The position numbers were made by a program, and so were the translations under genes. From the NCBI GenBank assembly GCA_027451745.1, contig DAIDIP010000017.1, positions 1 to 64,000 on the forward strand: a stretch of DNA of 64,000 nucleotides, written 5' to 3'. Within the stretch, counting starts at the first letter, position 1; each line of letters begins with the position of its first letter. Positions 12,679-54,812 of the stretch are shown here, in pieces. This DNA is from Candidatus Melainabacteria bacterium. Its GTDB lineage: Bacteria > Cyanobacteriota > Vampirovibrionia > Obscuribacterales > Obscuribacteraceae. The notes beneath the pieces were generated by a model that was given only the letters and a program-made list of their open reading frames with translations, did not search any database and was not told the DNA's origin.

Positions 12679-13389
12679 ATGAAATACACAAAGTACATAG
12701 TTAATCGAATCAAAAAAATGACCCAGGCAAACAATTTATCTGTAGCTTTTGCTGGAGCAACCTTACTAACGCTTAGTCAAACAGGGCAAGCGGTTTATGC
12801 CCAAAATACAATGAGTGATAGAGCCATGGAACGCTCACGTTTTTATACTGCTCCTCGTGAATATCAAATTGTTGACGAAAGACCTGTAGTACGAGACTTT
12901 CGTGAAGCACCCGTTACACCGGGTCAAATGGGTATACCTAATGGACCTGGCGGCGGACAAGGTGCTGGCGGTATGGGTGGTATAGGCGGTGGTGGTTCAG
13001 GACCTAATACAACTATTCCTTCTACCGGACTTCCTCTAACTGGGGGAACTGGTCCGGGTTATAGAAATGACCCGGCGGGCATGACTACTTTACCTAAGTC
13101 TGGCTTTGGTGGCAGTAATATTCCTGCTCACGGTATGGGTCCACGCGGTATTTTGCCAGGTGTTACCACAGGTGTAGTTGGCAAAGTAATGAGTCAAAAT
13201 GCTCCTAAGCAAACAGCTGCCGCTCCTATGCGCGCTTCATCTCTTAAAGGACCTTCTGGCGGCGGCGCCCCATCTGGACCACCTTCAGTATCTGGCTATG
13301 GTGGTTATGGAAACAGTCCAACTACTTCTTACGAAAACAGCAGTCGCACCGAGCAAAATGTACGCGGGCACTTGCTGAGAGGCAAATAG
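12679..13389 (+). CDS. Secreted glycine/proline-rich protein (236 aa)
   Basis: It has a long basic N-terminus, a hydrophobic segment and a cleavage-like VYAQ at about residue 41. After a charged stretch (residues 50-80) the chain is dominated by Gly, Pro, Ser and Thr, with GGGQGAGGMGGIGGGG near residue 93. The composition suggests an extended or surface-exposed filament-like protein. No homology is recognised. It lies 52 bases after the previous gene and 15 before the next, consistent with one operon. Confidence 0.6.
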   Translation: MKYTKYIVNRIKKMTQANNLSVAFAGATLLTLSQTGQAVYAQNTMSDRAMERSRFYTAPREYQIVDERPVVRDFREAPVTPGQMGIPNGPGGGQGAGGMGGIGGGGSGPNTTIPSTGLPLTGGTGPGYRNDPAGMTTLPKSGFGGSNIPAHGMGPRGILPGVTTGVVGKVMSQNAPKQTAAAPMRASSLKGPSGGGAPSGPPSVSGYGGYGNSPTTSYENSSRTEQNVRGHLLRGK

Positions 13390-13404
13390 AGGTTACTGCC
13401 AAAA

Positions 13405-15405
13405 ATGGTACCAGGAGAAAAAGGAAACTATCATATAAGCGCTGCCTCGGCTCCGTTCCACTCGCCTCAACGCGCGTATTTTACCTTGTGTCTTAGCGTA
13501 GCTGTGATTTTGTCTTCGACTAGCTGTGCTCATAATTCTGTAGATGTAAGACAAGCAGGCATTTCAGGACGTACTTTGCTTAGCAGCCTTAGACCAAAAG
13601 CAGATCCTGCTATGGTAGCTCATATTCGTGAAGAAGAACAAAAAGAAGCTCAAAAGCGAGCTCAAGCAGCTATTTATGCCGAGACTGCTGGCGCTGAACA
13701 AAATCAATTCGGTTTAGACAGGGTTTTGCCAAAAGTTTCAAATGAACCATTTAGCAGTTCCATTATTGCCCCAGCGGCAGAAAATGTTAGTGCAGATGGA
13801 GTCATTATATCGGGGCACGATAGCAAGCCTGATCCTAATCGTGCTGTGTATCATCCTTCCAACCCAGTGTCTAGCTACGACACTTATGGTTCAGTTCCAC
13901 CACCACCGCCTGGGGCCTTAGGCGGCGGATTAGTGCCTCCACCTCCAGCAGTTACATTATCCACCCAAGCCCAAGCTTATGCCGGAGCTATAGCTGATTC
14001 TGCTGCGTCTTTTTATAACAATCCATATTTTAACCCATTTGGTGTACCTACTCCTCCCCAAGCCCTAGCTTCCGCAACGCCTAACAGAAGACCAGCTGGT
14101 TTATTTGGCGAAGGTGGTGCTCGCGATCAAACAGATGAATATGGTGCTAAAAAGCACAAAGCAGACTTTGTGCCCATTACTCCTAAAGGTATGGAATCTC
14201 GTTCCCCATATAAACAAAGAGATGATTTGCGAGTTCTATGGAAAGGCGCTCTAAAATCGTCTGTGAATCTTGGCGGTCTATCAGAAAACGACAAATTAAT
14301 TGAACAATTGTCCCATCTTGATATTGGCTTGCCAGCTGAATCAACTAAGGGAAGTTTCAATATTTCTCCTCGTCTAATTGAGTCTTTATTTAAATCATCC
14401 ACTATCGACAAACGTGCCTTCCCTGAAATACGTAAATTGCAAAGCGAATTAGTGCAAGCATATTATCGTTATCTTTGTTCTTATAACAAATATGCATTAG
14501 CCGAGCAAACTGTTGCAGCTCGCAAACAAGAAATAGAATTATCTGAATCAGATTCGGAAAAACAAAGAGCAGCAGCAGATTTAGCTCAGACACAAAGTGA
14601 TTTAGAAGCCTGCAAAGACGATCTTCACTCAAGTGAAGTTGAATTAGCCGCAGCAAGTTCAACTGGCAGCGCTAGAACTGTCATTAGCCACATCGCCGGT
14701 ACTGCTCCTTCAGTGGAGGCACTTACTCAAGGGATATCTCAAAGTGGTTTGCGTAATAATGCTAGTCATCAAAGAAAACTAACCGGCTTTTTTGACACAA
14801 TGTTCAAGCATCCTCATTCTGCAAATACTGAAAATACAGCTTCTGAAGACAACAGTATTGTCACCAAAAAAGCTAAAGACGATAATGACGATCTACCAAG
14901 TAAGTATAAAGACAAAGCCCCGGCAACAGAAAAAGTAAGCAGTGTCAAAAGTAAAGGCGGATTATTCGGTCGCAAAGTTGCCCATATTGACGATAACGCA
15001 GATACCGCAAAACAAACAACCAAAAATGAAATTGCCAGCGATGATGATTTAAGTCCTGCGCCTAAAGCAGTAAGCAAAGTTGCTGAAAGCAAAAGTGTTG
15101 CTACTGCTAATAGCAATATTAGCTTTGTTCTTAAAAATGTGAGCGTAAATCCTCGCAAATCAGTTTTAAATGTAGTAGTTAAAAATTCCGGTTCTGATCC
15201 TTTCGAATTAAATCCAGATACTATTTATATAGCAGAAGGTAATCGTAAATTAGGATCTGCTGCCTTAAGAGCAGATTTTGATATTACTTCTATAGAACCA
15301 AACCAAGAAGTGAAGGGCGTTATTACCATTTTTAGCCGTCCATGGAATGACCGCCTGGTCATTTATTTAGCTGATGGCAACAAAACAGTACAACTTAAAC
15401 GATAA
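13405..15405 (+). CDS. Probable lipoprotein of the secretion-like locus (666 aa)
   Basis: After an unusual N-terminal extension (residues 1-24) comes a hydrophobic segment ending in SSTSC, a plausible lipobox with Cys at about residue 44. The middle has Pro-rich stretches (PPPPPGAL; VPPPPAVTL), then a helical coiled-coil-like region at about 335-415 (QAYYRYLCSYNKYALAEQ, then Glu/Gln/Ala-rich). The C-terminal 100 residues look like a beta-sandwich (NISFVLKNVSVNPRKSVLNVVV). Such a domain would suit an outer-membrane collar component, but I cannot name it. The N-terminal extension is encoded by a copy of the dispersed element described at 13439. Confidence 0.62.
   Translation: MVPGEKGNYHISAASAPFHSPQRAYFTLCLSVAVILSSTSCAHNSVDVRQAGISGRTLLSSLRPKADPAMVAHIREEEQKEAQKRAQAAIYAETAGAEQNQFGLDRVLPKVSNEPFSSSIIAPAAENVSADGVIISGHDSKPDPNRAVYHPSNPVSSYDTYGSVPPPPPGALGGGLVPPPPAVTLSTQAQAYAGAIADSAASFYNNPYFNPFGVPTPPQALASATPNRRPAGLFGEGGARDQTDEYGAKKHKADFVPITPKGMESRSPYKQRDDLRVLWKGALKSSVNLGGLSENDKLIEQLSHLDIGLPAESTKGSFNISPRLIESLFKSSTIDKRAFPEIRKLQSELVQAYYRYLCSYNKYALAEQTVAARKQEIELSESDSEKQRAAADLAQTQSDLEACKDDLHSSEVELAAASSTGSARTVISHIAGTAPSVEALTQGISQSGLRNNASHQRKLTGFFDTMFKHPHSANTENTASEDNSIVTKKAKDDNDDLPSKYKDKAPATEKVSSVKSKGGLFGRKVAHIDDNADTAKQTTKNEIASDDDLSPAPKAVSKVAESKSVATANSNISFVLKNVSVNPRKSVLNVVVKNSGSDPFELNPDTIYIAEGNRKLGSAALRADFDITSIEPNQEVKGVITIFSRPWNDRLVIYLADGNKTVQLKR
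13439..13488 (+). repeat. Dispersed AGCGCT/ACGCGCGT element, copy inside a coding region
   Basis: The stretch AGCGCTGCCT near 13439, a GC-rich middle and ACGCGCGTA near 13470 (followed by TTTTACCTTG) match the layout of the tandem array at 48616-48836 (there read on the minus strand). Here it lies in frame at the start of the lipoprotein gene and is read as ISAASAPFHSPQRAYF, just before the hydrophobic signal core. The shared end motifs are palindromic hexamer/octamer sequences. The middle is only partly conserved, so the copy is old or of another subtype. Confidence 0.5.
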
Positions 15406-15417
15406 GAAGGAGGAAGT

Positions 15418-18153
15418 ATGCGCCGAAATATGCATAAGCACCGCATAAATAGAATTTCCTCCCAAAGAGGAGCGACAAAGCAAAAAAATATTGTTTTTGC
15501 TTTTGCTGCTTCTTTGTATTTCTTATTTGTACTTTTGGCATTTGTTTCACCGGTTAAAGCCGGCCCTGTTGGCGGCAATCCAATAGGTGGTAGCGCTGGC
15601 GGTGGCAGCATGTCCTCTCAAGCCTTTGGCATTAATAATTCCAATGTTGGCCAAATGCGCCAAAATTATTTCCAGGAAAAGCCTACTTATGCAAAAGAAG
15701 CCAATATTATGCAGCAGCCTATGTCAGATCCATCCGGAGGTTCTTCATCGGATGGACCAAGCCGTGCTTTGCAGGCATCCCAGCCACCACCTGTTACTAA
15801 ACAATTAAACACTACGGTTGAGCCACCAATTCCCCAATGGCAGTATCAACAACCTCCAAACGTTGCCACTATGACCGGTACTGATTCGTCATTGACCACC
15901 CAGCAATCAGAGCAACCCCTTACAGATAATGGTTTAGCTATGACAGCTGCTCAAGACCTAGCTGTAAAAGCTATTAACGCTAAAAGAGAACTTGATGCTG
16001 AATTTGACCCGGGTCGACTAATACCTGCTGCCCAAGCTACTGCTCAAACATTGGGCACCAGTTTTGCTAATAGCGTGGCTTCAGCTGCCCAAGGTCCTCC
16101 TGGAACTGGTGGTACAGGTGGATCGGTGGCTGCTGCATTTACCGAAATTGCTGGTGTTGGTGGTGCTGGTGGAGCCGGTGGATTCAGTGGCAATGATGGT
16201 GGTGAACTCGATTCATTCATGGGTGCTATGTCTGGCATGCCATCCCCAGGGCTAATTAACGTAGCTAACGAAGCGGCTGGTACACCAACAGTTTCTTTTA
16301 CTCCATTCAAAACCATCTCGCAAGCGGTATGGATGGTTCAACAAATGTATAAACACTTCTCTATACCATTAGCAGTTTTACTGCTAGTACCAGGTGCTGT
16401 AATAACTCAAGTAAAAGCTCAAATAACTGCGAATTTTAATTTAAAAGGAGAAGACGCTACCAGCCCGTTTGAAGGCATTTTGCGGGCTATGGTAGCAATA
16501 TTTCTTATACCCGCCACACAATTGATTGTCAGTTATTCAATTGATGTTGGTAATTCTTTAGCTTATTCAGTTAACCCAGCCGTAGGCATAATGCCTATTT
16601 TAGGCTGGTTGCAACAAGTTGCTTATAGCACAATGCCCAGCAATAATGATAATGCTATTTTGCCTCCTGAAGAAGGTGGATTGCAACAGGAACAAGGTTC
16701 GGGCAGTGATGGTGGCGGACCCTTTAGTATGATGCAAGGTGGTGGCGGATTAGGCGGCATTCTAGGCGGCGGCTTTGGTGGACTTGGTGGTGGTGGCATG
16801 GGTGGTGGACTTGCCGCCGGCGAATCTGATGACCAGTCTGCTCCAGAAGGGCAATCTAACCTCAGTACTACATTAGAAACAATGTTCAATGTAATGATGT
16901 ATATGTTCTCTATTGGACTACTAGTGATGACAGCCTTTCAGCTGGCTATTATGTGTTATCTCTATCTTTTAGGACCTGTGGCGGCAGCATTCTTTGCCTG
17001 GCCTAGCGTAAAAGGAAAAATATTTAGACCTATATTTGGTAATTGGGTGAATGCTGTAATTACTGTTTCATTATGGCGATTTTATTGGATGGTTATTCTA
17101 GCCATAATGACTAATAGACTACTTAATTTAGGTGAAAATGGCAGTATGCTATTCAACTTACAATGGGAAGTAGCCATATTTACTTGCTTAATTGGTCTTT
17201 TATTCTATGTTCCTATGAATCCCTGGAATTTTGATCCAGGACAAGCATATCGCTCTGCTCAATTCTTTGGTGAACAAATTATGCAAAGTGCGGCCGCTGG
17301 CGCTAAAGGCGGCGGTGGCGGCGAAGGTGGCCAACAAAAAGGTGGCGGCGGTGAGGGCGGCCAGCAAAAAGGTGGCGATAATAGCTCTGGACAAAATAAG
17401 AGTGGAGGAAATAATGGCGCCAATACAGAAAACGCCAGATCATTTACCACTGCTTCAGCTGGATCAACTATAAATGATGGTAATGGCAAGGGCGGCGGTA
17501 CAGAGGCAGACAAAGGGTCGTCTCGCCAAATTGCTGATACCCCCTCGCCTTCATCTGCAAGTGGTAATAATATTGCTTCCAATTCTGGACTCACAAGCAA
17601 CGGACCACCTATTGCAGATCAAGCAAAAGATCAAACTAGAGACGTAGCGTCGCTTGGTTCACAATCAGGCGCAAATCAAAGTGCCTCGGCTAATCAGCCT
17701 GCAAGTAACAATCAACCGGTACAGCCTAATTTAACGGACAATGCTCAAAGTCCGCCCCCTTCAGATCTAGCAGGTATCTATGCTGCTTCAATGGGTTCTT
17801 TCGCTTCTGGAGGACAAGGCAATTTGACAGCCATGCAATCTCCAAATGCGGGCCAAGGTTTTGATTCTGCTTCTCAAACAGGGTCAGCTGCTAGTACCAG
17901 CGCTGGTGGCAGTGATAGAGCACCTGTTTCACTCTTGCCAGACTCTAATCAAGGAGCCCCTGGTGAAAGTCCTACCTCTATGGTGCAAGTTAATGATAAA
18001 GCTCCTCAAGAATCTATAGACCAAGGTATGAAAGATTACCAAGGTATACTCACTGCCTCTAATCAACAAAATTTACCACCAGCCAGTCAAACAGGCACTG
18101 GTAACCAGACAAGCAACAAACCGGCAAATAATGACAAAGATAATCTGACATAA
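15418..18153 (+). CDS. Large VirB6/TrbL-like polytopic membrane protein (911 aa)
   Basis: It starts with a long basic N-terminus and a hydrophobic segment (about 24-47). A first membrane block at about 312-395 reads IPLAVLLLVPGAVITQVKA, then PFEGILRAMVAIFLIPATQLIVSYSIDVGNSLAYSV. A second block (about 490-604) has LYLLGPVAAAFFAWPSVKG. Both blocks align by eye with the next gene, so the two are paralogues. Gly-rich linkers (about 440-465 and 625-665) and a long Ser/Asn/Gln-rich tail surround them. A polytopic core with a conserved LGP-AAxxxWP segment next to a VirB4 ATPase suggests the VirB6/TrbL inner-membrane channel of type IV secretion, though it is far longer than usual. GGAGG precedes the ATG. 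Confidence 0.7.
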   Translation: MRRNMHKHRINRISSQRGATKQKNIVFAFAASLYFLFVLLAFVSPVKAGPVGGNPIGGSAGGGSMSSQAFGINNSNVGQMRQNYFQEKPTYAKEANIMQQPMSDPSGGSSSDGPSRALQASQPPPVTKQLNTTVEPPIPQWQYQQPPNVATMTGTDSSLTTQQSEQPLTDNGLAMTAAQDLAVKAINAKRELDAEFDPGRLIPAAQATAQTLGTSFANSVASAAQGPPGTGGTGGSVAAAFTEIAGVGGAGGAGGFSGNDGGELDSFMGAMSGMPSPGLINVANEAAGTPTVSFTPFKTISQAVWMVQQMYKHFSIPLAVLLLVPGAVITQVKAQITANFNLKGEDATSPFEGILRAMVAIFLIPATQLIVSYSIDVGNSLAYSVNPAVGIMPILGWLQQVAYSTMPSNNDNAILPPEEGGLQQEQGSGSDGGGPFSMMQGGGGLGGILGGGFGGLGGGGMGGGLAAGESDDQSAPEGQSNLSTTLETMFNVMMYMFSIGLLVMTAFQLAIMCYLYLLGPVAAAFFAWPSVKGKIFRPIFGNWVNAVITVSLWRFYWMVILAIMTNRLLNLGENGSMLFNLQWEVAIFTCLIGLLFYVPMNPWNFDPGQAYRSAQFFGEQIMQSAAAGAKGGGGGEGGQQKGGGGEGGQQKGGDNSSGQNKSGGNNGANTENARSFTTASAGSTINDGNGKGGGTEADKGSSRQIADTPSPSSASGNNIASNSGLTSNGPPIADQAKDQTRDVASLGSQSGANQSASANQPASNNQPVQPNLTDNAQSPPPSDLAGIYAASMGSFASGGQGNLTAMQSPNAGQGFDSASQTGSAASTSAGGSDRAPVSLLPDSNQGAPGESPTSMVQVNDKAPQESIDQGMKDYQGILTASNQQNLPPASQTGTGNQTSNKPANNDKDNLT

Positions 18154-18175
18154 GCCAAGTAAGAGAATAAATACT

Positions 18176-21100
18176 ATGATAGCCATACTGACAAACCAAC
18201 AATTGAATTTTGCTGAAACGCTAAAAAGAGCTAGCGTTCCAAAATTAATCTGCATAAGATTGACGGTGTCTGTGCTAATGTCCCTGGTTTTTATTTCACC
18301 AAGCTATTCACAAAATAGCGGCGGATCTATTAAAAGCTACAATCAATCTGCAGCAGGCGTTCAAGCGCAATACACGCCTTGGCAAATTCGTAAAGACTAT
18401 TTAGATCAACATCCCGATGTGAAAAAATACGCCGAAGCCCAAATGCAGTCTAGAACTGGTGGAGGCGGTGGTGGCACAGGTGCTAGTGGCGCTGACGGTA
18501 GTATGACTGGAACTGGTAGTTCAATGAACTCTAATGGTGTAAAAGCGCAGCCTACTGGACCTCGTGAAATTCCTTATGGCTGGGTGGTACCAACACCTGG
18601 AACTGGCACAATGTCCCTAAAGCAAGATTCACTTAGTAAACCATTTTTTGATGCGATCGAGAGTAAAATAAACAACTCAAACCAAATGGGTGCTGGACCA
18701 TTAACCTCAGCTGAATCCTTAGCTAATTCAGCTGCCGTAGCCAAAGTTAAAAGTGACTTTGAAGGCGACCCAGATAATTTCACTAAACCAGCCGCAGCCG
18801 TTGCCAGCTCGCTTTCTACTTCTGCTGCTAATAGCATGGCGGGTGCTGCAGTTAGCCAGGCAACTGGCGCTATAGAATTCACAAGACATTATTTAGTTAA
18901 CTTTACTGCTCAAGCTGGTAGCAGTTGGCAATCTTTGCGCAATCATTTGTTTATTCCGATTGCTATTTTATTATTGCTTCCAGGAGCAGTACTGGCTCAA
19001 GTAAGAGCCATTGTTGCTCAAGGTTCGCCAATTTTGGGTGAAGTAAATCCTTTTGAAGGTATCACCCGTTCAATAATTGCTATTTTTATGATTCCTGCTT
19101 CTTTTTTAGTAGTGAATTATGGCATTGACGTAGCTAATTCGCTTACTTATTCAATTTCTACCGAATATTGGAATTTATTTCATACAGATATGTATCAGGA
19201 TGCTGAATGTGCTGAAATGCGGGCGTTTCCTGTAAACGGACCCAATCAGAATTTTAATGCCTTTTTGCCTGTCCCATTTTTTTTGCCTCCAGTTATGATG
19301 GATCCCTGGAGTATGTTTGAATCAACAGGCGTGGCTAATAAGCTTTTTGATCCTTGTGCTGGTCTTAATATATCCAATGTTGCTGATGAACAATCAAGCC
19401 CAACTATGAATACTAATCGTATGGCGATGAATGGTTCCAATGCATTTTTGGCTATGACTTGGAATATTATGTGTGCCTTTCAGACAGTATTTTTATATTA
19501 TTTGTGGTGTATGGGTCCAATAGTTGCAGCCTTGTGGGTCTGGCCTATGGAAAGACTGCGCAGTGCACTTCCCAGTTGGATTGAAGGTGTAATTACTTTA
19601 TGTTTCTGGAGCCTTTTTTGGAATGTGGTTGTATTACTCATGGCTTGCTTTAGAGGTGTATCTGAAACAGGCACCGTAATAATGACCGCCTTAAATGGTT
19701 TGGCGACAATTTCTGTTTGGTACGCTTTTGACTTTAGTGCCTTAGTTAGTGAAGGTGCTGGTTATTCTATGATGAATGCTATTAGCTCGGCTATGAGAAG
19801 TGGTGGTGGTGGTGGTGGTGGTGGCGGAGGCGGTGGTGGCCAACAAAAATCCGCTGGTGGTTCGGCGCAACAATCTGCTGGTGGACGTGGAGCCGGTGGT
19901 ATGTTAGGTGGTATGTTGGGCGGAGCTAATGCTCCAGCTATGGCAGGACATCCTGGAGGAACTGGTGTTTTTTCTACCGCTTCAACAGGTTCAATCAGTA
20001 CTATGGGCTCAGGTGCTAATTTAGCAATTGGACCGGGCGCTATGGGAGGAGTATCGGGACTAGCTCCTAGTGGTGGCGGCGCAGGTGGAATCGGCTTGCC
20101 TATGATTAGCTCGTCATCATCAGGAGCAACAATAGGTGGACCTAGCTCTAATCTTTCAGCTTTCAATGATGCTGTTAAGAGCGAATATAATAATCGTGGG
20201 CTTAATAGTATGACTACTGATCAAATGGCAGCTGCGCAAACAAGAGTTGCCGAAATGAATAAAGTAGCCCAGCAAGAATCTCAGCAGCGTGCTCTTCAAC
20301 AAGGTCAAATGATGCTTGCTGATTATGCAAGATCGCATGGTGCTGATATGTCATCTATGTTTGGCTCGCAAAACCCACAAGCAAAAGCAGCTGAACAAGC
20401 AGCACATAATATGACAGTAGCTCAATTTACTTCACAAGCCTCACAAGCTCAGCAGCAACAATTTGCTGCCTTAATGAATGCTAGTGCCCATCAAAAACCT
20501 GGTGCAGATTTGCCGCCTTCGGCTATAAGAGATATCGCTTCTATTTCGCCTGCAGCTAGTGGAGCACCTGGTATGGCTGGGACACCAGATTTTGGTTCGT
20601 TAACTCTTGGCATAGCTAGTCTTGGTGCAGCTGATGCAGCTGTTGGAGTACCTACAACTTTTGTTCCAGCAGGATCAGGAGCTGATTTCAGTGCCGGTGG
20701 ACTTTCTGGACCACCACCGCTCGAAACAACCACTACGTATACAACTGTTCCTGGTGATATAACAACTTCAGACACTTATGTGCCAGCACCAACTGATACA
20801 GTAATGAGCAGCGATGATGCTGGCTATCAAAGTTATCAGACTGCGCCTGAAACTTATACTACAGCCTCAGCTGATGTGGATCCTGGTCATGTGTATAGAT
20901 CAGAACAGTCTCTATCTGTTGATTGGTCAGCAGCAAGCATGAACAATATGGCAAGAGAATCTAATATTGACTATTCGCAAAATGTTCAAAATGCTCATAT
21001 GCCATATGGACAATCACCGCCTCCAGCGCAAAGTACTGAGTATGTAGTACAAAATAGCCAACCTGTGCCTGAGCAGCAACAAGTGCAATATATGCCTATG

Positions 21101-48422: not shown

Positions 48423-48495
<73 letters not shown>

Positions 48496-48600
48496 ATAAT
48501 GCGCCCGGTAAAGCTTCTATGAGCACCCATAGCTTGCCAAATATATCACATTAGTGTGGTCAAGTAGCAGGCTGCGAAACGGAGCGGAACGAAATGAAAT

Positions 48601-48836
48601 ATAGCTTGGCCAAAGCAGCGCTAAAGAATGACAGAAGGAGATATGGCGGAACGAAGGGCGGCTATGCCGTCCGAAGTAAAGCGTCTGTACGCGCGTCTGG
48701 GCAAGCGGAGCGCAGACCAGGCAGTGCTAAAAGTTTAGATGGATGAAGTGAAGCGAACGGCGACGGTGAGGCGGCGGAAGCTGAACGAAGTAAAGTACGC
48801 GCGTCTGGGCAAGCGGAGCGCAGACCAGGCAGCGCT
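48601..48836 (-). repeat. Tandem array of three degenerate ~106-base GC-rich units (AGCGCT/ACGCGCGT element)
   Basis: Read on the minus strand, units begin with AGCGCT at 48836, AGCACT at 48728 and AGCGCT at 48622, at spacings of 108 and 106 bases. The first two share an identical 37-base core (plus-strand 48796-48832 and 48688-48724) that ends in ACGCGCGTA and is followed by a CTTTACTTCG motif, with a six-base insertion in the second. The third is more diverged (AGCGCTGCTTTGG, then CGTTCCGC). The region is markedly GC-rich against its surroundings. It fills the gap of about 340 bases between tRNA-Phe and the gene ending at 48836, whose stop codon touches the first unit. No gene is seen in it. 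Confidence 0.75.
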
Positions 48837-49471
48837 TAATATATAGACGAGCTTTGTGTGGATATTTGATTGTTTATCCCAACGATGCGCAAACCTGTAT
48901 CGCCTTTGCGAACTAATAAATTCATTTGAACTTGATTTGCTGCCGGTCTAGCATTTGCTGATTGCATTACCAAAGTTCCATTCAAGCTCACGACGATTGA
49001 ATGGTCAGGGTTAATTGCCACTGCCCTTATCGAAATTGGTTGGAAAGCGCCTACTGACGCTCCAGAGCATACTTGTTGAGATATTTCGGGTGTCCAAAAA
49101 GCTTCATTGAAAGCTTTTAAGGTTTCAGGTGACATCCAATTAGCGGCTGCTTCATGACTTTGAGCAGCAGATTTAGGGGTAAAATCCATTGCTGCTTTCA
49201 TCCACCATTTAACAAAATCCACTGCCAGAGCAGGATCTAATTGTACTTTTTTTGCATAATCATTTGCTGGCACACTAGCGTCTGTTGACTCAGAATTATT
49301 TTTAGAAGGCATACTCTGGCTTTGAGCGAGCTTACTTACAGGTGGTTCATCTTTATTACCGTTGTTGAAGCCGCCAACAAAAAAGCCAAGTAAACAGACA
49401 ATAAGAAGCCCTAGGAGAATCTTATCGTTAAATATTCTTTGTATCGTTGTCCTGACAATATCCTGAAACAT
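48836..49471 (-). CDS. Membrane-anchored protein, possibly VirB8/TraE-like (211 aa)
   Basis: One membrane span (about 18-36) is followed by a Ser/Asn-rich linker. A helical part (VDFVKWWMKAAMDFTPKSAAQSHE, then WMSPETLKAFNEAFW) and strands (ISIRAVAINPDHSIVVSLNGTLVMQ; QVQMNLLVRKGDTGLRIVGI) follow. This order (anchor, helices, WMSPE, then strands with a central VxVxG) is like the NTF2-like periplasmic domain of VirB8/TraE. That would tie it to the secretion-like locus 23 kb away, but the call is tentative. ATG at 49471 with GGGA upstream is preferred to GTG at 49489. Its TAA stop abuts the repeat array. Confidence 0.55.
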   Translation of the reverse strand: MFQDIVRTTIQRIFNDKILLGLLIVCLLGFFVGGFNNGNKDEPPVSKLAQSQSMPSKNNSESTDASVPANDYAKKVQLDPALAVDFVKWWMKAAMDFTPKSAAQSHEAAANWMSPETLKAFNEAFWTPEISQQVCSGASVGAFQPISIRAVAINPDHSIVVSLNGTLVMQSANARPAANQVQMNLLVRKGDTGLRIVGINNQISTQSSSIY

Positions 49472-53612: not shown

Positions 53613-54812
53613 GTGAGTCTGGAAATCCTAATTATCAGACTATCTGCCCTGGGTGATGTGGTGCATACACTACCGGTGGCGGCAGCTATAAAACGTTATT
53701 TACCCGACGCAAAAGTAACTTGGGTGGTGCAAGATTTAGCTGCTCCCCTGCTGAAAGACAATCCAGCTGTGGATAATGTCATCATATTCCCAGGAAAAGC
53801 TATGCTACCAGGATCGGTGGCTTCACCGCCCGCGGTTAGTTCTATACGTGAGCGCTGCCTCGCCTTCGTGCCTTGGCTCAACGCGCGTAAAGACGCTTGC
53901 CAAACTGACGGCTCTTCGCCGCCAGTGGCTCGCTCTATTTCGTCTTTAGCCCTCCTAAACCAGTTCTGGGGGGGATTTAAGTCTAGACGTTATGACATCG
54001 CCATTGATGCCCAAGGACTTCTTAAAAGCGCTCTTTTATGTTGGTTATCAGGTGCCAAAACCCGTATAGGCTTTGCCAATACCCGTGAATGGGCAGACAA
54101 ATTCCTCACCCATCCGGTTGATGTAGGTGATTATTTTGGACCTGATATACATATAGTAGATTTAAATCTTAAGCTTGTTGTTAAATTGTTCGATGTTCTT
54201 GGTAATAATGTGCCAGCTAACTGGGTAAATGCTCAATTCTCATTACCGGTGGTGCCTCAGCTTATAAAAGAACGGGTACAATCCTGGCTGCCTAGTTCAA
54301 AGCAGCGTCTAGAAAACATCATTCTAATACCAGGCACCACGTGGGACACTAAAATATGGCCGCTAGAAAAATGGGAAGAATTAGGAAAACGGTTATTAGA
54401 CAACAATTATTACCGCATCATTATATGTGGTGGCAGATCTGATTTAGCTATCAACAAAAAACTGGAAAAACGTCTTTCTAGTTGTGATAATCAAAAGATC
54501 ATTAATCTCACGGGTCGGACAAACCTTATCGATCTAATAGCCTTATTTGAACAATCTCAACTTGTAATAGGCGCTGATAGTGGACCAATACATTTAGCTA
54601 GTGCGGTAAGCAAACCAAAAGTGGTGGCTATTCATGGCGCTACACCGTGGAAACGAAACGGACCTTATGGAAAACTTGGACATGCTATTGCACTCAATCT
54701 AGAATGCCAGCCATGTTTTGAAAAACAATGCCCACTTCATACATTAGCCTGCTTGAAAGACCTTAGCGCTGAACAAGCCTTTCACGAAGTAAATGCATTC
54801 GTGGAAAAATAA
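53613..54812 (+). CDS. Heptosyltransferase (glycosyltransferase family 9) with an internal insertion
   Basis: Transfers ADP-heptose-type sugars to the lipopolysaccharide core. Family motifs are the opening IIRLSALGDVVHTLPVAAAIK, RRYDIAIDAQGLLKSALL, PGTTWDTKIWPLEKWEEL and IGADSGPIHLASAV. At 399 residues it is longer than the roughly 350 usual for the family. The excess, about residues 68-112, lies between the first strand region (DNVIIFPGKAML) and FKSRRYDIAID. It has a GC-rich sequence unlike its flanks and matches the dispersed element. The frame is intact, so the product may still fold with an extra loop. The start is GTG. Confidence 0.85.
   Translation: MSLEILIIRLSALGDVVHTLPVAAAIKRYLPDAKVTWVVQDLAAPLLKDNPAVDNVIIFPGKAMLPGSVASPPAVSSIRERCLAFVPWLNARKDACQTDGSSPPVARSISSLALLNQFWGGFKSRRYDIAIDAQGLLKSALLCWLSGAKTRIGFANTREWADKFLTHPVDVGDYFGPDIHIVDLNLKLVVKLFDVLGNNVPANWVNAQFSLPVVPQLIKERVQSWLPSSKQRLENIILIPGTTWDTKIWPLEKWEELGKRLLDNNYYRIIICGGRSDLAINKKLEKRLSSCDNQKIINLTGRTNLIDLIALFEQSQLVIGADSGPIHLASAVSKPKVVAIHGATPWKRNGPYGKLGHAIALNLECQPCFEKQCPLHTLACLKDLSAEQAFHEVNAFVEK
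53800..53945 (+). repeat. Dispersed AGCGCT/ACGCGCGT element inserted in the heptosyltransferase gene
   Basis: AGCGCTGCCTCGCC starts at 53851, ACGCGCGTAAAGACGCTT begins at 53881, and GACGGC...CGCCGCC follows. On the minus strand the second unit of the 48.6-48.8 kb array reads AGCACTGCCTGGTC, ACGCGCGTACAGACGCTT and GACGGC...GCCGCCC in the same order and near-identical spacing. Here the element is read in a different frame from the copy at 13439. The outer borders are set by GC composition and are approximate. Confidence 0.6.

Follow-up and report, generated by a model that had tools for sequence, protein, structure and literature searches.

Introduction

Rickettsia palindromic elements (RPEs) are repeats of ~100-150 bp that occur both between genes and, in frame, within unrelated conserved genes (PMC10969869, reviewing Ogata 2000, 2002). 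In R. conorii, nearly half of RPEs lie within genes (PMC10969869). Bacterial MITEs, such as ERIC, are short, non-autonomous, mostly intergenic, and occasionally give rise to in-frame gene fusions (PMC10969869, PMC2229807). REP/BIME sequences, which are paired with RAYT (a Y1 transposase), form hairpins, sit between genes singly or in small arrays, and show no target duplication. The ends of IS200/IS605 elements form hairpins, and these elements insert 3' of a short T/A-rich motif without duplicating the target.

Here we describe a repeat from a 64,000-nucleotide stretch of a Candidatus Melainabacteria genome (GCA_027451745.1, contig DAIDIP010000017.1, positions 1 to 64,000; the window), one copy of which lies inside a gene for a GT9 heptosyltransferase. 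By description, and with no homology claimed, this repeat behaves like RPEs in an unrelated lineage. It is likewise short, structured or palindromic, and dispersed; it is found between genes and in frame, where it adds tens of residues, and its in-frame copies are in several unrelated conserved genes whose orthologues are empty. It differs from RPEs in lineage and composition, in its two-hairpin structure, in its preference for TTATA edges, in entering genes in both orientations and in more than one frame, and in having ~3% rather than nearly half of its copies in genes. The repeat resembles MITEs in being short, mostly intergenic, and occasionally fused to genes in frame, but its termini share at most AGCG(NN)GC, as read from the consensus, and no target duplication accompanies it. 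It has the hairpins, intergenic placement, single or small-array arrangement, and lack of target duplication of REP/BIME sequences, but its unit is larger, with two hairpins, and its genome lacks a Y1 transposase. Subterminal hairpins, the absence of target duplication, and insertion 3' of a short T-rich motif (wanting at one empty site) recall IS200/IS605 elements, although neither an autonomous parent nor a Y1 transposase was found for the repeat.

Results

The heptosyltransferase ORF spans 53613..54812 on the forward strand (399 aa, GTG start) and encodes a PF01075 domain (E = 9e-42, 143.5 bits against a cut-off of 22). The nearest NCBIfam model was TIGR02193 (heptosyltransferase I), whose equivalog cut-off of 185.3 bits was not reached by the protein's 153.2 bits. 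Outside of the loop discussed below, comparison with the orthologue in a sister species (G001) gave dN of 0.18 and dS of 1.94, implying purifying selection on the gene over the whole divergence of the two genomes, including the time before the insertion. No homologue was found among the viral contigs searched. The ORF is interrupted by a GC-rich stretch, with a GC content of 0.56 in a 200-nt window compared to ~0.40 around it.

This stretch contains a full-length copy of the repeat at 53845..53934 on the minus strand, located by BLAST and a covariance model, with its AGCGCT end toward the 5' side of the gene. The copy is antisense to the gene and keeps every modelled base pair. Its contribution to the protein is 34 codons (102 nt), in frame: the insertion RERCLAFVPWLNARKDACQTDGSSPPVARSISSL, residues 79-112, occupies ~53847..53948 on the plus strand by alignment, with boundaries uncertain by a few bases. 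Ancestral gene sequence abuts it at 53817..53846 (plus strand), where ...TTCTATA matches the empty site ...TCCTATA|AAAGC of the sister. In the alignment, removing the 34 residues leaves a K62...FW spacing of 24 residues, as in several homologues, and the insertion is absent from all 16 other homologues aligned, the sister set aside.

Profile alignment to E. coli WaaC positioned the insert directly after IRRWRKAWFS. In E. coli heptosyltransferase I, charged residues 60-64 contribute to acceptor binding, and residues 63-69 form the dynamic N3 loop involved in binding the lipid A acceptor (PMC9068772). By this alignment, the insert is at or just after the acceptor-binding N3 loop of HepI, and hence the loop that received it may be functional rather than idle. 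The two proteins belong to the same GT9 fold family (WaaC/RfaC; PDB 2GT1, 2H1F/2H1H), but the loop is short in E. coli WaaC whereas 34 repeat-derived residues are added here. An AlphaFold model made from a two-sequence alignment had a mean pLDDT of 52.5, with values below 50 at residues 62-112 and in other regions as well, and was of too low quality to assess the loop.

The insert belongs to a dispersed repeat family. A BLAST search with 53800-53975 returned 38 matches in the same genome, the best other copy having E = 9.6e-13, and the exact core AGCGCTGCCT-N(12-36)-CGCGCGTA occurred 17 times compared to 0 for its reversed control. We aligned 36 full-length copies from this genome and the sister and built a covariance model. 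The unit is ~92-96 nt long and forms two hairpins in the orientation ending ...GGCAGCGCTTATAAA. The model matched the in-gene copy on the minus strand with 68.5 bits (E = 5.3e-15), although this copy is itself among the 36 sequences behind the model; the BLAST match above is to another genomic copy. The repeat is GC-rich in a genome of ~40% GC.

Further copies in the window were found with the covariance model at 48645..48734 and 48747..48842, both on the plus strand, and at 13432..13513 on the minus strand, the last with a degenerate second half. The two plus-strand units (75-91 bits) form a tandem pair at 48.6 kb in the orientation opposite to the in-gene copy; this pair was not reported by Tandem Repeats Finder. 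Within 48423-48842, the pair adjoins a tRNA gene; this tRNA and its flanks are also present in the sister, with neither unit at the syntenic site. Separately, glycine-rich coding repeats occupy 12961-20646 of the window (GGT/GGC runs, with 30-nt units at 17311-17370).

The earlier note, made from the window alone, had described an excess of about 45 residues at 53800-53945 that shared short words, in the same order, with the 48.6-kb array. The excess is real but smaller, at 34 residues, and the first ~46 nt of that interval are ancestral gene sequence common to the sister, while the remainder is repeat-derived. BLAST and the covariance model bore out the likeness to the array, which extends beyond short words to the whole element but runs as the reverse complement.

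Across genomes, the covariance model found 55-56 copies in this genome (96% complete, a 76-contig draft) and 71-87 in the sister (71% complete), all genomes being draft assemblies. Matches occurred in 18 of 60 relatives, every one in the same family, whereas the relatives searched from other families of the order and class gave no match. In the alignment of this genome and the sister, 10 of 19 pairs had changed on both sides, with 55 compensatory cells, whereas shuffles gave 22 and slid partners 5-15. Divergent relatives had the same two-hairpin structure, with 16 pairs changed on both sides and 101 compensatory cells compared to 27 in shuffles and 1-18 when slid, although their alignment was made with the covariance model and thus leans toward the modelled structure. 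The repeat had no match in Rfam; its newness was judged against Rfam and open-access literature, and an earlier description is possible.

We next considered where the repeat inserts. Among 47 anchored copies, the AGCGCT end was preceded by T at -2 in 89% and by A at -1 in 74%, and the commonest tetranucleotide before it was TATA (17/47). Target duplication was no more frequent than chance (3 of 47 copies compared to 4.2 expected). The TTTATA motif is missing from one empty site, site A, and may thus be either the target or part of the element.

These features bear on what moves the repeat. The absence of long terminal inverted repeats beside the hairpins, the lack of target duplication, and placement 3' of a short T/A-rich motif would all suit an IS200/IS605- or REP-like element that is non-autonomous and mobilised by a Y1 (HUH) transposase, which is a narrower version of the insertion reading. 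Against this, no Y1 transposase (PF01797) was found in this genome (96% complete), the sister, or G008, despite their 52-87 copies of the repeat, and only G003 had a match among the 13 genomes searched. We therefore consider a Y1 mover doubtful. Reverse transcriptase was absent from G008 (52 copies) and G018 (27 copies). Neither enzyme tracks the copy number of the repeat. No parent transposon was found for the repeat. Its mobility would be driven in trans by an enzyme, probably one acting on the hairpin as single-stranded DNA or possibly RNA.

The repeat is concentrated at the edges of genes. About 97% of the ~224 copies whose surroundings were read are intergenic and ~3% are within genes. 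The AGCGCT end was at most 15 nt from a CDS edge in 30 of 49 copies, compared to 7 of 49 for the other end, and within 30 nt it was found at 19 start codons and 13 stop codons. At several gene 3' ends, namely at loci L166, L179, L181, and L203 and at 48836 in the window, the stop codon is a TAA made at the element junction (TA|AGCGCT).

Strong compensatory base changes and frequent placement of the AGCGCT end right before starts raise the alternative that the copies are leader or terminator RNAs, that is, structured cis-regulatory RNAs rather than mobile DNA, with an in-gene copy that happens to be translated; GAGG could then act as a Shine-Dalgarno sequence. This account is unlikely given that the same end abuts stops almost as often as starts, that copies have been gained and lost between sister species and have formed tandem arrays, and that the heptosyltransferase copy is antisense and mid-gene. 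The search of Rfam, without a match, also speaks against it.

The sister species provided a direct view of the locus without the repeat. Gene order around the heptosyltransferase is conserved between the two genomes, and the orthologue has an empty site at the insertion point, ...CCTATA|AAAGC.... Where the sister reads ...GAGGTTAGTCCTATAAAAGCAATAG..., this genome reads ...GCGGTTAGTTCTATA-[element]-..., with a flank ending in TATA, and the codons on either side of the repeat (CACCGCCCGcGGTTAGTtCTATA) match a continuous stretch in the sister. The sister protein (L071) nonetheless has an expansion of its own, an Ala/Pro/Ser-rich segment of ~30 residues slightly upstream in the same loop (codons ~1690-1860), which matched neither the repeat model nor the insert. 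As a result, the loops are nearly equal in length (54 residues in the sister compared to 55) and similar in GC content (0.53 compared to 0.58).

This near equality in length, place, and composition is what would be expected if the ancestor of the genus already had a loop of ~50 residues, of which the GC-rich segment is a diverged remnant. We consider an ancestral long loop very unlikely, because the sister's extra residues resemble neither the repeat model nor the insert, the repeat-flanking codons are contiguous in the sister, both expansions are missing in 16 of 16 other homologues, and the insert matches repeats elsewhere in its genome at E = 9.6e-13. The simplest history would be that a single permissive loop received two insertions independently. 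The sister's expansion implies that this loop also lengthens by other routes and marks it as a hot spot of length variation.

Other sites point to turnover of the repeat. A copy at C18:2024 is missing from the sister, while other sites are common to both genomes but differ in copy number. Six sister loci (L210, L211, L216, L219, L222, and L246) hold tandem arrays of 3-5 near-identical units with a period of ~110 nt. The contrast between arrays in the sister and mostly single copies in this genome implies that copy number changes fast.

In-frame copies also recur in other genes. Those supported by homologues are in the heptosyltransferase of this genome, PrmC and YceI of the sister, and a DnaE-type polymerase of G021. 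In the sister, an additional ~50 residues separate HemK positions 119 and 124 in prmC (L255), with no element in the orthologue of this genome, and yceI (L248) has an element between signal peptide and domain that is exactly absent from the orthologue. In the G021 polymerase (L132), 125 residues correspond to 88 positions of the HHH_6 profile. Three loci in relatives (L236, L289, and L297) are weaker candidates, as homologue support is confined to the cases above. Over the sister arrays, the counted cases are solely ORFs with recognisable domains or signal peptides; most long ORFs there were rejected as genes, being read-through of low-stop repeats. Copies within genes lie in either orientation and use more than one frame; the element thus shows no sign of specialisation for coding. 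In the orientation seen in the heptosyltransferase, all three frames are free of stops in 22 of 36 copies, compared to 0 of 36 in the opposite orientation.

An assembly or binning artefact is scarcely credible: although the genome is a 76-contig draft and repeats are typical break points, both flanks match the sister gene in synteny, the reading frame is unbroken, and comparable in-frame insertions appear in several independent assemblies.

Discussion

We conclude, with a probability of roughly 0.9, that a short mobile repeat, itself non-coding, inserted in frame into a functional heptosyltransferase I-like gene and produced this lineage-specific segment. The proposal that a mobile or copied element lies in the loop, made in the earlier note, has gained a dispersed family, a syntenic empty site, and independent in-frame insertions elsewhere. 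The refuting case named there, a matching segment in repeat-free homologues, was seen only superficially, since the sister loop is equal in length but unrelated and slightly offset, and the 16 others are without an insertion.

Mechanistically, the ~92-96 nt repeat folds into two hairpins when single-stranded, and its AGCGCT end would be inserted 3' of a TTATA-like sequence, commonly where a gene begins or ends. In this case, a TATA inside the heptosyltransferase would have been hit in the orientation mostly free of stop codons. The insert length is divisible by three, and the loop presumably accepts length changes. Low-stop orientation, divisible length, and a permissive loop together kept the protein intact with 34 additional residues. 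We infer that the insert was retained because the loop tolerates a change in length, and claim no benefit to the host.

The broader claim is more demanding, and we judge the odds on it to be even: that these structured mobile repeats form a family not recognised before, found in one bacterial family other than that of Rickettsia and mobilised by a novel kind of enzyme, and that they have repeatedly inserted in frame in conserved genes to make new protein segments and have remodelled the acceptor-binding loop of an LPS heptosyltransferase.

With no transposase found for it, the element poses the question of how it is moved. Because each of the two sister species has empty sites where the other has a copy, insertion rate, target choice, and protein tolerance can be tested directly. 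The best-known case of selfish DNA yielding new protein sequence by in-frame insertion is that of Rickettsia, and the process recurs here in an unrelated lineage.
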